From a virus, in IMG/VR virus record IMGVR_UViG_3300030107_003503, positions 7,814 to 34,303 of that record: a DNA stretch of 26,490 nucleotides, one strand, 5' to 3'. Position numbers and translations under genes: made by a program. Position 1 is the stretch's first letter; every line of letters starts with the position of its first letter. The notes below the pieces were generated by a model. That model saw only the letters and a program-made list of their open reading frames with translations. It had not been told where the DNA came from and did no database searches. Shown here in pieces: positions 6,314 through 16,971 of the stretch.

Positions 6314-6616
6314 TTAAGTTAATCCTAAATCTTTAAAGGATTTCGCTCTCTCTACTTTACCTGCCCTCAATTCATATTTTCTTTTCATTGAAATACTACG
6401 ACTATACTGTGACCTAAGTTCGGGTTTATCTTTTGCTAGTTTACCTATCTCATCAGGTGTATAACCGTCGAACTGGTGTATAACATTATAATTATTCAAG
6501 GCCATCAATAACCCTGTTAATTCATGTCTTGGAGTTGCTTTTATTTCACTCCAATTCATACCTAGTTCTTTCATACATGGGATGATTACAAACACCGCAT
6601 CTGGCGATGTAGTCAT
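6314..6616 (-). CDS. Tail assembly chaperone, T-like part (frameshift product)
   Basis: This frame encodes 100 aa from an ATG at 6616 and lies between the G-like gene and the tape measure, as the T frame does in lambda-like viruses. The ATG has no purine-rich Shine-Dalgarno site (the bases before it are TTTGTAAATTGG), unlike nearly all neighbours. The frame is open upstream into the -1 slip site at 6625-6631, which gives the bridge Val-Asn-Trp before this Met. I infer that it is mostly made as a G-T fusion of about 220 aa (117 + 3 + 100), which would bind the tape measure and recruit tube subunits. The protein is basic toward its end, with RSISMKRKYELRAGKVERAK. I recognise it by position and frame relation, not by sequence. 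Confidence 0.8.
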   Translation of the reverse strand: MTTSPDAVFVIIPCMKELGMNWSEIKATPRHELTGLLMALNNYNVIHQFDGYTPDEIGKLAKDKPELRSQYSRSISMKRKYELRAGKVERAKSFKDLGLT

Positions 6617-6631
6617 CCAATTTACAAATTT
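6580..6631 (-). promoter_or_regulatory. Predicted -1 ribosomal frameshift signal (G to G-T)
   Basis: The slippery heptamer A_AAT_TTG lies at 6631-6625 in the X_XXY_YYZ phase of the G-like gene, immediately before its TAA. A -1 slip re-pairs AAT to AAA and TTG to TTT, then reads GTA AAT TGG ATG straight into the T-like gene. Six bases (TAAATT) separate it from a predicted RNA stem: GGATGA at 6618-6613 pairs with TCATCC at 6585-6580. After one C-A mismatch, TACA at 6611-6608 pairs with TGTA at 6590-6587. The loop is 17 nt. Slip site, spacer and stem all fit the known architecture of -1 frameshifting in tail chaperone genes. The Z base G is not the commonest choice. Confidence 0.8.
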
Positions 6632-6975
6632 TCAGCTTGTGTTCCTAATATCGTACTAGAAATGCTCCACCTGAGTGTAGTTGGTAGAGAGCCCCAATTT
6701 TCTTCTGTTAATGATGTACCTTCGGGGTTTTTATCATTAGCTTTTTTAATCATTGCTAATACTCTTTCTGATGCCATTTTTTTGAAATACTCTGTTTGTT
6801 CCTCTTCAGGCATGTCATCTGTTGGTATAGCCATCTTTGGTTCTTCTGCTTCTACTAATTCACACCATTGTATGTGTAGTTTCTTTCCTTGCCAATCCAA
6901 ATTGGTTGACTGTACTTTTTCTGTCATTTGGACTAATTCTTCGATTGTCCACATTTCGTTTGCTTCTTCTGTCAT
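6622..6975 (-). CDS. Tail assembly chaperone, G-like part
   Basis: This is a 117-aa acidic protein starting MTEEANEMWTIEELVQMTEK, with AAGGAG seven bases before its ATG. In siphoviruses the gene just before the tape measure encodes chaperone G, and a fraction of ribosomes shift -1 near its end to make G-T. Here the last sense codons are GAA AAT TTG before TAA, and they contain the heptamer A AAT TTG in the correct phase. The next gene begins five bases after the stop in the -1 frame. It follows the tail tube genes and a 55-aa protein. Assignment rests on order, size and the frameshift signal. Confidence 0.8.
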   Translation of the reverse strand: MTEEANEMWTIEELVQMTEKVQSTNLDWQGKKLHIQWCELVEAEEPKMAIPTDDMPEEEQTEYFKKMASERVLAMIKKANDKNPEGTSLTEENWGSLPTTLRWSISSTILGTQAENL

Positions 6976-7182: not shown

Positions 7183-7869
7183 TCAGAAGGTAGTATTAGC
7201 TGTTACGTTATCAGTACCAGTTGTACCTGCTGTAATTATAGGTTGTAAGTAAGACATGAATTCTATTGTTTCTTCAGTTGTTCCATCAGCATTTACTGTG
7301 ACAGTATGTGATTGTACACAACATTGTGGTAAAGTTAAAACTTGACCATCTGTCTTTAATTTCAAGAAAACTCTATATCCATAATCTGAACGTGCTGGGT
7401 TTGCATTTTCATGGTATTGTCCGTTAGCCAATACACCATGTCTTGCAGCATTGAATATTGCATCGTAGACGTTATTATTCTTTTTCCTTGTGATTGATAA
7501 AGTAGTTTCTTTCTTAACTTCTACTTTCATAGCAGTCCTAGAACCAATATAAGTTATATCTTCGTCCTGAACACCCAAAGAGATATCTACTCCTGTAACA
7601 TCTGATTGTTCGTTAGACCATTGGTAATTACCACCATCTGATGGTTCTTGTGTACCAAAAACAGTCGTATCACCGCTACTAAAGTTAGTATTAGGGCTAT
7701 TTGCTACATTGTATCTTGCTCTTGGTCCAGCAAAAACATTTGTATTAGGGTCTGGTCCTTCATTATATTGAGGAGTTTGTAATCCTCCGGCTGCTGTGAC
7801 ACCTATTCCATATTGGTCATCTTCTGTGGTAAGGGCTACAACAACATCTCTTCCAAGATAGTAAGCCAT
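7183..7869 (-). CDS. Tail tube protein, paralogue 2
   Basis: This 228-aa protein is clearly homologous to the gene just upstream. Both start MAYYLGRDV, both have a VTGVDI or ITGVDI strand, then VQDEDITYIGSRTAMKVEVK, a central YGYRV strand, and a C-terminal block with SHTVTVNADGTTEETIEFMS and QPII. The order (before the chaperones and tape measure) and the beta-rich composition fit a tail tube subunit. The stretch at residues about 24-75 is Asn/Pro/Gly/Thr-rich and unlike the paralogue, so it may be a surface loop. GAGGT precedes the ATG by seven bases. The gap to the upstream gene is nine bases. Confidence 0.75.
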   Translation of the reverse strand: MAYYLGRDVVVALTTEDDQYGIGVTAAGGLQTPQYNEGPDPNTNVFAGPRARYNVANSPNTNFSSGDTTVFGTQEPSDGGNYQWSNEQSDVTGVDISLGVQDEDITYIGSRTAMKVEVKKETTLSITRKKNNNVYDAIFNAARHGVLANGQYHENANPARSDYGYRVFLKLKTDGQVLTLPQCCVQSHTVTVNADGTTEETIEFMSYLQPIITAGTTGTDNVTANTTF

Positions 7870-7878
7870 ATCAAAACC

Positions 7879-8535
7879 TCAGATTGCAGTCGTAACTGCG
7901 TACATTGCTGCGTCGTCTGCGTTAGCTGCTATAATTGGTGTAACGTGAGAAGTAAATTCTAAAGTTTCTTCTGTAACACCGTCTGCACTCAAAGAAACAC
8001 TGTGTCCTGTTATACAAGCATTTGGTATTGCTATTGCTTCTACTGCATCTTGTAACTGAACAACTACTCTATATCCGTATGATATATCTGAACCTGCTTT
8101 ATGGTCTTCTGGTGATGATAGACCTGCTGATATTAAATTATTATCACAACCCCATCTTGCTCCCACTTGTCGGTGTGCGTTACCATCTGAACATTCAGCT
8201 GCCTTGATTGGTCCGTTAAAAATAACGTCAAGTTCATTGTCTGATTTCTTGAATGTTAAAGAAACAGTTGTTTCTTTTTTAATCTCTGCTTTTAGTACTG
8301 AGCGTTGTCCCATGTAGGATACGTCTTCATCTACTACGCCTATTCCGATGTCTACTCCGGTTATATCTGTTTTTGCCAGACCATCAGCTAAACCTGCTTG
8401 TGTTCTAGTGTTTGCAAAGTTTGTGATAGCGTTAGTATCCAAAACTGTACATTCATTAGAGCTTACAGCTATACTGTCGTCGGCATCTTCGGTTATAATC
8501 CAGACTTTAACATCTCTTCCTAAATAATATGCCAT
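7879..8535 (-). CDS. Tail tube protein, paralogue 1
   Basis: This 218-aa protein is the first gene behind the promoter at 8600-8631. Shared landmarks with its neighbour are MAYYLGRDVKVW at the N-terminus, TGVDIGIGVVDEDVSYMGQR, KAEIKKETTVSLTFKK, YGYRVVVQL, and a C-terminal TGHSVSLSADGVTEETLEF. Tube subunits are the most abundant tail protein, so a dedicated promoter here makes sense. TTGGAG lies about ten bases before the ATG. The inferred 5' leader is about 59 nt. It could instead be a distal or collar tube variant paired with the other copy. Which copy is the major tube cannot be told from sequence. Confidence 0.75.
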   Translation of the reverse strand: MAYYLGRDVKVWIITEDADDSIAVSSNECTVLDTNAITNFANTRTQAGLADGLAKTDITGVDIGIGVVDEDVSYMGQRSVLKAEIKKETTVSLTFKKSDNELDVIFNGPIKAAECSDGNAHRQVGARWGCDNNLISAGLSSPEDHKAGSDISYGYRVVVQLQDAVEAIAIPNACITGHSVSLSADGVTEETLEFTSHVTPIIAANADDAAMYAVTTAI

Positions 8536-13434: not shown

Positions 13435-16400
13435 TTATCCCTCCAACACTGCTATTCTAGCTTCGAGTGCAGTATTTTTTGCTGATAATTCTTGAACAGC
13501 CTTTATTAGTGCCATTCTATACTCATTTCCAAATTTCATTGATATACCTGCTATGTCACCATAGGTTTCATCACCTTCTTTAGCAACATTAACATATTCA
13601 GAATCTATAGTTTCTATATCTTGTGTTAAAACACCAATATGTGTTCCTGAAGGACCGTAACCATCTTTGTAAGTAAATGTCTTTAATTTTAAAGCGTCTA
13701 TTAAACTTAATCCTGTAGTAAAATCTGTGATATTTTCTTTTACTCTACTATCCGAAGCACCCGGAGCTGAAGCTGCATGAGTTACAATACCTACAGAAGC
13801 CGTTAAATCAACTTGCATTGATGGCATACCTGCTGTTGTAAAACTAAACACACCAGCACCCACATCAACTCCAGCATCTCCGTGACCAGTATATGTATCA
13901 GCTTCTACGTTTCCATCAAAGAATGCATCTTTAAATTGGCGGCTTACTGTTCCCAAATCATATTGATTGTTGGTGTCAGGTACCAAATCTGAATCGACTT
14001 GGTCAGACCATGCGTTACCGCTTCCTCCACCACCTGTAGCTGCTATTGTAATGCTACCACTACCATTAGTAACAGATATACCGCTACCTGCTGTAATAGT
14101 TGCTAGTTGTGGGTCTGTACTACCATCACCAATAGGAATTTGTCCATTAGATGCAACGCCCAGTGCAGTAATTGCCCCTGTACCAGAACCTAATAATAGC
14201 CCACCATCAGTAAGAGATGTTGCACCCGTACCGCCATTAGCTACTGGTAAAGTTCCAGTCATATCATTTGCTAAGTCAACATTAGAAAGACTATTTCCAG
14301 AAGCATTAGCATCGAATGTTTTATTTGTAAATGTATTTGTACTTGAGGATGTAGCATTGTTGGCAGCATGTGCCATTACATCAGTTCCTATTTCTAAACC
14401 TAAATCTGATTTTACTTCAGAATAACTTCTACCTTCTAAACCATTGGCAGTAAATTTAGCGAAATCATTATCTGCTGCATCTGCGTCATCTATTTCTACA
14501 ATATTATTATCTGCTATACCTATAGCTCTTGAGTTTATACCAGAGGTACCATTACCCAATAATACCTGACCAGATGATAAAGTGCTTCTACCAGTTCCAC
14601 CATGTGCTACTGCAATATCTGTTGCTGCCCACTCACCGGCTGTTACACTACCAAGTTCCGTGATGGTTAACGAATTAGCTCCAGCTACGTCAGTAATTGC
14701 TGCATCAACTATATTATGGTGAGCAGTACTCATTAATCCTGCTATAGAACCTGTTGCCTCTCCTATTACTACATCGTTTCCTGTAGATGATGTAATTGTA
14801 ATTTGATTTGTAGCAGTAGTTTTACCAAGGTCTGTAGAACCTCCTCCGGATGTTGCAAATCTATCATTTATTGCTGCTGCTGTCATTAGTGCAGCATCTG
14901 AATCACTGAAGGTTTCTCCAGACTTTGTTACTTGTGTTATTCCTTGTGTAGAACCACCTGTAGTATCAAAAGTCCATGTTCCTGTAGTTGTAAAACCACC
15001 TGCTGTGATTGTACCACTTGTGGTATCATTAGCATCATTCTTTAAGAAAGCATCATCAACAGCAACAGTAGCTGTTCCACTACTATAGGTAACAGTTGCG
15101 TTAGTTCCACCTGCTACAATAACTGCTCCTTTATTAGAAGCTGTACTATCTTCAGCTGCAATAGAAATATTTACACCACTATTTGTGACATTCATACCTG
15201 AACCACCAGTCATTACAAAACTTGCAGTTGTTCCAGAACTATCTGATGCCTTAGAACCAGTACCAGTATCTGTTGTAAATTCAACTGTGTCAAATTTGGT
15301 TGGAAGTTCAGCTCCTATTTTATCAAGAATTGCTGCTGAAGTCATTAAAGAAGTGTCGTTATCTGCGAAAGATTCATTAGTACTTTGTATAGTACTTACT
15401 ACAGCTCCAGAACCACCAAGTTGAATACCATCATCATCGTCTATACGCATAACTTCTGAATCGCCATTATCTTTAAATACTATATCTTTATTATTAATCA
15501 TTTGTCTAATAACGATATCACCACTGTTGGTATTTGTAAATTTAAGGTGTCCTGCTGCGCCCCCAAACTTAAAATCTATTTCATCGCCGTCTGCATTTAA
15601 TTCTATATCTCCTGCTGCATCTAAATCTATATCACTAGCACTTTCTATTTCTAAGGCTCCTGAAGAAGTGGACCATTTACATGCTTCGGCTGATGTAATT
15701 GTAACTGGTGAACCTGCAATGGTTCCTCCAGTATCATTATCGTGAGTAATTGTAAAATCATTCCCTGCACCCATATTTATAACTGACGCATCAGATGTTA
15801 AGAATAAATCATCTCCTACTTTGAGGTCAGTACTTATATTAACTTCTGTACTTGCATCTATATCTACTGTAGGTGCAGTAATTGCTAATTCAGTAGTTGC
15901 TGCAATATCTAATTGGTTGTCTGTTGACTCATAGATGTGTTGTCCAGAACTGGCTCCTCCAAATTCTAATTTACCTGAACTGGCAATTACTAAATCATCT
16001 CCATCAAATGTTAGATTTGCTTCTCCCTTTAAACCATCTGTACCAGTCGCTGTAACTACATAATTATTAGAACCAGTTGCTAAAAAATCAGAAACGTCCA
16101 CTCCAATCGTTGCAGCGTAATCTCCACTACTTGCTCCAGATACACTTGTAATATCTACACCTGTTCCAGCTGTTAAACTTACACTAGTTATATCTCCGCC
16201 ACCTGTAATCCATTCAGGGGCACCAGCACTTGAGTCCATTGCAAGAATCTGGCCAGCAGTACCTTTTGCTAGTTTAGCTAAAGTTGTTGAACCTGATGCA
16301 TATAAAATATCTCCAGAAGTAAATGAGGTTATGTTTGTACCACCATTAGCTACTGGTAAAGTTCCAGATACATCATCAGCCAAAGCAATTGCTCCTAAAG

Positions 16401-16971
16401 TAATTGCTTGAGAAGATAATGATAAATAATCGTGTGAAGATGTTACAAGGGTTACATTTGTTGAATTATCAGTTCCTGCTGCGTCAACACCAAGAGTAGT
16501 TCTTTGTGCAGCTGCATCGGCATCATCTAATATTGCTCTACCTGCTGCTGTTAAACCAGTTACTGCGTATGTATCAGAACCGCTAGTATATATCATTTTG
16601 TTAGCAGCTGTTGTAAGACCTGCTATAGAGTTGAGACCAGCATCATAAGCTTGTACATCAGTTCCAATTTCTAAATTTAAATCTTGTTTCACTTCAGAAT
16701 AACTTCTTCCTTCTATTGTGTTTGCATCCGTAAATTTAGCAAAATCGTTACTTACTGGTGTACCTGAAGTATCTACCGTACCTGTATTGGTGGTGTATCC
16801 ACTATCATTATTAAAACTAGATATTTTAAAAGTTGACCTTTCATTGGATGAATCACCAAACCAGATTAATCTGTCTGCGGTATTCAATACTATTTCACCA
16901 CTTGTAAAATCTGAATTAACAGGTACGTCAGATGAAGTTGTACTATGTTTCATTATGATTGTGTTTGCCAT
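13435..16971 (-). CDS. Large fibre protein with S74 intramolecular chaperone
   Basis: This 1178-aa protein begins with a module shared with the 761-aa neighbour (MANTIIMKHS, then SGEIVLNTADRLIWFGDSSN). Typical fibre repeats follow: YDAGLNSIAGLTTA at 108-162, and GGTN/GGTG modules near 205, 790 and 910 (ANGGTGATSLTDGGLLLGSG). A segment at about 76-108 (DFAKF, EGRSYSEVKQDLNLEIGTDV) recurs near 835-865. Residues about 1068-1178 are a peptidase S74/ICA chaperone: SDSRVKENITDF with the Ser-Lys dyad, THIGVLTQDIE, and a C-terminal coiled coil (QELSAKNTALEARIAVLEG). Such domains trimerise fibres and are cut off after folding at the Ser. AAAGGAG precedes the ATG by six bases. It has its own promoter candidate upstream. 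Confidence 0.92.
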   Translation of the reverse strand: MANTIIMKHSTTSSDVPVNSDFTSGEIVLNTADRLIWFGDSSNERSTFKISSFNNDSGYTTNTGTVDTSGTPVSNDFAKFTDANTIEGRSYSEVKQDLNLEIGTDVQAYDAGLNSIAGLTTAANKMIYTSGSDTYAVTGLTAAGRAILDDADAAAQRTTLGVDAAGTDNSTNVTLVTSSHDYLSLSSQAITLGAIALADDVSGTLPVANGGTNITSFTSGDILYASGSTTLAKLAKGTAGQILAMDSSAGAPEWITGGGDITSVSLTAGTGVDITSVSGASSGDYAATIGVDVSDFLATGSNNYVVTATGTDGLKGEANLTFDGDDLVIASSGKLEFGGASSGQHIYESTDNQLDIAATTELAITAPTVDIDASTEVNISTDLKVGDDLFLTSDASVINMGAGNDFTITHDNDTGGTIAGSPVTITSAEACKWSTSSGALEIESASDIDLDAAGDIELNADGDEIDFKFGGAAGHLKFTNTNSGDIVIRQMINNKDIVFKDNGDSEVMRIDDDDGIQLGGSGAVVSTIQSTNESFADNDTSLMTSAAILDKIGAELPTKFDTVEFTTDTGTGSKASDSSGTTASFVMTGGSGMNVTNSGVNISIAAEDSTASNKGAVIVAGGTNATVTYSSGTATVAVDDAFLKNDANDTTSGTITAGGFTTTGTWTFDTTGGSTQGITQVTKSGETFSDSDAALMTAAAINDRFATSGGGSTDLGKTTATNQITITSSTGNDVVIGEATGSIAGLMSTAHHNIVDAAITDVAGANSLTITELGSVTAGEWAATDIAVAHGGTGRSTLSSGQVLLGNGTSGINSRAIGIADNNIVEIDDADAADNDFAKFTANGLEGRSYSEVKSDLGLEIGTDVMAHAANNATSSSTNTFTNKTFDANASGNSLSNVDLANDMTGTLPVANGGTGATSLTDGGLLLGSGTGAITALGVASNGQIPIGDGSTDPQLATITAGSGISVTNGSGSITIAATGGGGSGNAWSDQVDSDLVPDTNNQYDLGTVSRQFKDAFFDGNVEADTYTGHGDAGVDVGAGVFSFTTAGMPSMQVDLTASVGIVTHAASAPGASDSRVKENITDFTTGLSLIDALKLKTFTYKDGYGPSGTHIGVLTQDIETIDSEYVNVAKEGDETYGDIAGISMKFGNEYRMALIKAVQELSAKNTALEARIAVLEG

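Follow-up and report, generated by a model that had tools for sequence, protein, structure and literature searches.

The tail assembly chaperones G and GT of phage lambda arise by a -1 ribosomal frameshift (PMC5009743, citing Xu, Hendrix and Duda 2004). Among archaeal viruses, a -1 frameshift in the chaperone pair has been proposed for HVTV-1 and HCTV-1/2/5 and a +1 frameshift for HSTV-2 (PMC5009743, PMC8211752), and Hardycor1 has been proposed to shift at G_GGA_AAT (PMC7911831), in each case on computational evidence; the HCTV-6 record is annotated with a -2 frameshift in its chaperone pair. The fucA1 gene of Saccharolobus solfataricus undergoes a -1 frameshift on A_AAA_AAT with an efficiency of about 10% in vitro, and a 2021 review lists it as the sole demonstrated archaeal -1 frameshift, describing the haloarchaeal virus cases as "reported" or "apparent" (PMC8211752). 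Viruses of marine Poseidoniales have been described as Magrovirales and Adrikavirales (PMC12451623, PMC13108676), and a magrovirus paper searched for frameshifting in these viruses contained no mention of it.

The window analysed here is a 26,490-nt stretch of IMG/VR record IMGVR_UViG_3300030107_003503 (34.3 kb), and the genes considered are read from the minus strand of that record. As in lambda, two ORFs lie just ahead of the tape measure gene; the first closes with a slip heptamer, the second is in the -1 frame, and a fusion product is predicted. The lambda heptamer is GGGAAAG, unlike the AAATTTG, AAATTTT and GGATTTT heptamers of the present group, most members of which also have a strong downstream hairpin and whose proteins show no detectable likeness to known chaperones. 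The locus resembles those of the haloarchaeal tailed viruses in that the proposed frameshift lies in the putative chaperone pair of a probable archaeal head-tailed virus, but the present viruses are marine and distantly related (terminase 24% and portal 23% identical), and the group's conservation and RNA structure were tested over 32 junctions. With fucA1 it would share -1 slippage on a tandem heptamer followed by a putative stem-loop in a probable archaeal host, although fucA1 is a cellular gene and not a conserved two-product chaperone system. Like the Magrovirales and Adrikavirales, these appear to be marine archaeal head-tailed viruses, with tRNAs that point to Poseidoniia/Marine Group III; searches of the phage collection with G, the major capsid protein (MCP) and the portal gave no match to any record of either order. 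The initial annotation of the window implied that such a case would be a rarity, which was overstated because tail-chaperone frameshifting had already been proposed for the archaeal viruses above and annotated in HCTV-6. The locus represents a new group of a known frameshift type, with unusually good support, and its fresh aspects are the depth of the comparison and the exchange of one stimulator for another.

The G-like/T-like junction of the window

The features of the junction are collected in Table 1. The G-like ORF ends with ...CAA GCT GAA AAT TTG TAA, and the heptamer A_AAT_TTG was found in X_XXY_YYZ phase right ahead of the stop and followed by a 6-nt spacer, just as the initial annotation had described. 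Read in the -1 frame, the junction is TGA|AAA TTT GTA AAT TGG ATG ACT..., which continues without a stop into the T-like gene and bears out the proposed fusion of 117 + 3 (VNW) + 100 = 220 aa. The two frames share just 7 nt; since a -1 TGA lies immediately 5' of the heptamer, one in-phase position alone can join them, and the heptamer occupies that position. The order of G-like ORF, T-like ORF and, directly downstream, the tape measure gene is the arrangement expected of a G/GT pair.

Table 1. Positions of the features discussed, in window coordinates or, where a handle precedes the numbers, in those of a relative.
Feature	Position	Strand	Basis or remark
G-like ORF, 117 aa, 0 frame	6622..6975	(-)	Homologues; AAGGAG 5 nt ahead of start
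Slippery heptamer A_AAT_TTG (XXXYYYZ, 0-frame phase)	6625..6631	(-)	A slip heptamer aligns here in 31/31 other distinct -1 junctions
TAA stop of G-like ORF	6622..6624	(-)	Abuts heptamer; first half of 6-nt spacer
Spacer TAAATT, 6 nt	6619-6624	(-)	Gap between heptamer and hairpin
Stimulatory hairpin (putative), -16.9 kcal/mol	6580..6618	(-)	MFE folding; shuffle controls; pairing in class I
Hairpin outer helix	6613-6618/6580-6585	(-)	Paired in 14/14 class I
Hairpin middle helix	6608-6611/6587-6590	(-)
Hairpin inner helix, four pairs	6603-6606/6593-6596	(-)	Paired in 95% of class I cells
-1 frame, stop-free from heptamer to T-like stop	6314..6631	(-)	Stop-to-stop ORF; C-terminal half of predicted fusion
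T-like ORF from its own ATG, 100 aa, without Shine-Dalgarno	6314..6616	(-)	AF2 pLDDT 90
Tape measure protein gene, 970 aa	3386..6298	(-)	PHROG tape measure E = 2.4e-41; Pfam PhageMin_Tail E = 1.8e-24
Pair of neighbouring conserved proteins, similar in length, just upstream of G	7183-7869; 7879-8535		Relatives start MxYFLGxDV
Frozen CTGATG...TCGCCTGATGCGGTA element	L034:3348-3407 and 11 other class II junctions		Replaces hairpin
Candidate +1 site, conserved Phe as UUU_C (UCU_UUU_CGU)	L022:3320-3390

A stem of 10 bp with one mismatch had been claimed downstream of the spacer. Its ten-nt arms, GGATGACTAC (6609-6618) and GTAATCATCC (6580-6589), do form nine pairs and one C.A mismatch, and the structure extends further than first read, as the inner helix had been overlooked. 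The hairpin folds better than 300 of 300 versions in which the codons were shuffled without changing the protein (z = -5.2) and outdoes 199 of 200 dinucleotide shuffles (z = -3.2); an Rfam search of the window returned zero matches. An X_XXY_YYZ heptamer, a short spacer and a stable structure under selection were found together in the window and in most relatives.

Together with the comparison of relatives below, these features make it very probable that the two genes are joined by programmed -1 ribosomal frameshifting, of the G/GT type known from tail assembly chaperones. Most ribosomes would end at the TAA and release the 117-aa G-like protein, while the hairpin 6 nt downstream would slow a minority. 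These would slip one base back on A_AAU_UUG, with Asn-tRNA moving from AAU to AAA and Leu-tRNA from UUG to UUU, and would then read GTA AAT TGG ATG and the T-like frame to yield the 220-aa G-T fusion. If the proteins act as they do in lambda, G would be expected to coat the tape measure protein and the fusion to bring in tail-tube subunits through its T part, and tail assembly would depend on the G:GT ratio. Polymerase slippage can also arise on A or T runs and would place the fusion in the mRNA instead of in the act of translation; here the A run is just 4 nt long and the T run 3-4 nt, relatives with GGATTTT have no A run, and the hairpin sits at a spacing that points to ribosomes, all of which leaves transcriptional slippage a negligible prospect.

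Putative slip site and stimulator across the relatives

Relatives were collected from IMG/VR, giving 46 loci with both genes and 33 distinct junctions including the window. Relatives of G were absent from 50,697 phage records and from GTDB genomes, and a provirus search of the GTDB genomes with the G alignment found none. T lies in the -1 frame of G in 32 of the 33 distinct junctions (the window and 31 others), the exception being L022. Every one of these 32 carries a slip heptamer at one alignment position, AAATTTT in 20, GGATTTT in 9, AAGTTTT in 2 and AAATTTG in the window alone, and has a T frame that is stop-free back to the heptamer. GGAUUUU corresponds to a described slip motif, G_GAU_UUU of a Fusarium mycovirus (PMC11050907); for GGATTTT and AAGTTTT, re-pairing in the P site is imperfect only. 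The Phe codon of the heptamer is TTT in 31/31 relatives, against 78% TTT usage. The relatives' proteins share 42-65% identity with the G of the window, and outside the element the synonymous sites of most T codons agree about as often as expected, so this conservation is not merely recent descent. Retention of the slip site in 31 diverged relatives makes the frameshift signal almost certainly real. The sequence comparison thereby establishes the signal, its conservation and selection on the RNA, and from it we infer slippage and its efficiency.

Were G and T ordinary neighbouring genes, the signal would have to be a coincidence of an A+T-rich genome. AAATTT-type heptamers are indeed common at 37% G+C, and this strand of the window holds 125 XXXYYYZ heptamers in any phase. 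Those in X_XXY_YYZ phase take up 0.59% of the codons of the genes in the window and 0.7% elsewhere in the same family genes, so that a heptamer in phase at the sole admissible position is expected by chance in about 0.6% of cases, against 32/32 junctions observed. A chance heptamer was rejected on these rates, and with the signal recurring in 31 diverged relatives and the folding independent of codon content, coincidence can be practically discounted.

Averaged across the relatives, folding energy in 50-nt windows is lowest exactly 3' of the heptamer, and the codon-shuffle z of the hairpin region averages -2.9 in the family. Four kinds of junction can be distinguished by RNA structure. Class I comprises the window and 13 others, with a GGATG/CATCC outer helix that is 100% paired, and covariation within the class consists of two double changes, a small number: a compensatory GC->AU change in the outer helix of L029 and a CG->GC change in the inner helix of L035. 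Pairing holds in 98% of class I cells, against at most 49% with slid partners, with kinship remaining in the shuffle control. A second group (L033, L045, L049) has stems of the GGATGACCG/CGGTCGTCC type, and a third (L025, L027, L054) has tight GGGC[A/G/UG]...[U/C/CA]GCCC stems with changes matched on both sides. These side-lineage stems keep the same start point with new partners (GGGCA..UGCCC, GGGCG..CGCCC and GGGCUG..CAGCCC).

The 12 junctions of class II keep the heptamer and are mostly devoid of a significant hairpin (codon-shuffle z +0.5 to -2.7). No consistent signal was found in a search for longer-range structure up to 120 nt, and RNAalifold gave a stem of 3 bp at most. The place of the hairpin is taken by a synonymously frozen TCG-CCT-GAT-GCG-GTA, in which TCG is present in 11/12 (5% of Ser codons) and GCG in 11/12 (9% of Ala codons); this element may stimulate slippage by another route. 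In L022 the heptamer is absent, the spacer is 2 nt longer and T lies in the +1 frame. Its UUU_C is plausible as a +1 frameshift site, and an assembly error is also possible, the frame change being seen in a single contig.

The initial annotation had proposed aligning related viruses for covariation of heptamer and stem, and had named loss of either beside two intact genes as evidence against frameshifting. The heptamer stood in 31/31 of the -1 relatives, and compensatory stem pairs were found. The stem is not universal, as the hairpin is missing in 12 relatives, and loss of the heptamer with both genes present is confined to L022.

Translation and identity of the G-like and T-like proteins

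Translational coupling would offer a different route to T, in which ribosomes that have finished G at the TAA re-initiate at the T ATG and make a separate T, the heptamer and hairpin being incidental or tuning re-initiation. In the window, this ATG (6614-6616, in frame with the -1 reading) lies 5 nt past the TAA, in class II the stop of G and the start of T share bases in TGATG, and an ATG near the G stop is retained in 28/32 junctions, all of which would suit coupling. In L025, L027 and L054, however, there is no start codon at the T position, where Ala stands in place of the start Met, and the T frame of L025 has no ATG, GTG or TTG before codon 19, which lies inside the conserved domain. The T start has no Shine-Dalgarno site in the window, as first noted and now confirmed against the other window genes, most of which do have one, and nearly all relatives likewise have none there. 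Coupling also leaves unexplained the fixed place of the heptamer and the T frame open back to it in all 32 -1 junctions, and the start of the hairpin 6 nt past the heptamer in most junctions. We therefore regard coupling as improbable and favour the -1 frameshift, on which T, judged from its sequence, depends in at least one relative. Because an ATG close to the G stop is so widely kept, a separate T made by re-initiation is possible as well, and the stop/start overlap of class II means that re-initiation may add free T there.

AF2 models of both proteins are confident (pLDDT 87 for the G-like and 90 for the T-like protein), and the T domain is conserved in relatives. Searches of G and T against PHROG, Pfam and PDB sequences and with Foldseek (PDB and BFVD for G, BFVD for T) gave no match at E <= 0.001. 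Homology to known tail chaperones was set aside as a claim; "tail assembly chaperone" was mentioned only at prob 0.04-0.23, which is not evidence. Such ORFs of different phages show low mutual similarity (PMC5009743), so the missing protein or fold match lowers the claim of homology and not that of function. The description of the pair as tail chaperone genes accordingly holds for their position before the tape measure gene and fails for sequence or fold matches to known chaperones; position and mode of expression, as in lambda (PMC5009743), suggest a chaperone role. The two conserved proteins just upstream of G, for which Pfam and PHROG searches were without match, are candidates for tail tube subunits. 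Elsewhere in the window, the product of 13435-16971 is large and fibre-like and carries a Peptidase_S74 (endosialidase chaperone) domain at its C-terminus.

Host and significance of the virus group

Three relatives carry tRNA genes. A 21-mer from the D-arm of the G001 and G006 tRNAs occurs in 17 GTDB r220 genomes, 17/17 of them archaeal and mostly Marine Group III/Poseidoniia, and the archaeal-type tRNA-Glu of G005 is 84-86% identical over 56 nt to tRNAs of those Marine Group III/Poseidoniia-rich genomes. The virus-encoded tRNAs at L061:9415-9492 (-) and L062:2465-2542 (+) have an encoded CCA and resemble the tRNA-Glu(CUC) of Marine Group III in their bodies, but with the anticodon CUU (Lys by ARAGORN), one anticodon base away from Glu. 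For the window's large terminase subunit (TerL), the best and longest match is to a haloarchaeal virus and those to cyanophages are shorter; this TerL is 24% identical to that of Halogranum tailed virus 1; the portal matched haloarchaeal viruses only and is 23% identical to that of HCTV-6. TerL of the window virus is 64-71% identical to those of five long contigs from this group, the tRNA being present on two of the five, and in the long contigs compared the portal is 69-78%, MCP 50-71% and ribonucleotide reductase (RNR) 80-90% identical. The RNR of the window's own record is the C-terminal part of a class II enzyme at the end of the record (L011:3-1019 (+)), 80-90% identical to those of the relatives. 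The replication marker MCM was absent in 16 contigs, and it was rejected as not discriminating after the control matched all 14 genomes, bacteria included.

A tRNA search of the window's record found none, and we thus infer the virus's own host from the tRNAs of its relatives and its nearest TerL and portal matches. On this indirect evidence the archaeal host, which the initial annotation had entertained as a condition, is likely for this record; Marine Group III as the host is less certain than an archaeal host in general.

We give even weight, for and against, to the broader proposal that an archaeal -1 shift operates across a whole group of uncultured marine viruses, probably of Marine Group III/Poseidoniia hosts, in which the slip codon has stayed constant and the stimulator has been repeatedly replaced, with three kinds of hairpin, a hairpin-less class with a frozen element and the +1 arrangement of L022. 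For annotation, the two ORFs should be joined, as they otherwise look like two orphan genes. The group amounts to a natural series in which 32 related signals differ in heptamer and hairpin and one lineage shows an apparent switch of direction, so that the requirements for slippage of archaeal ribosomes are testable with short reporter inserts.
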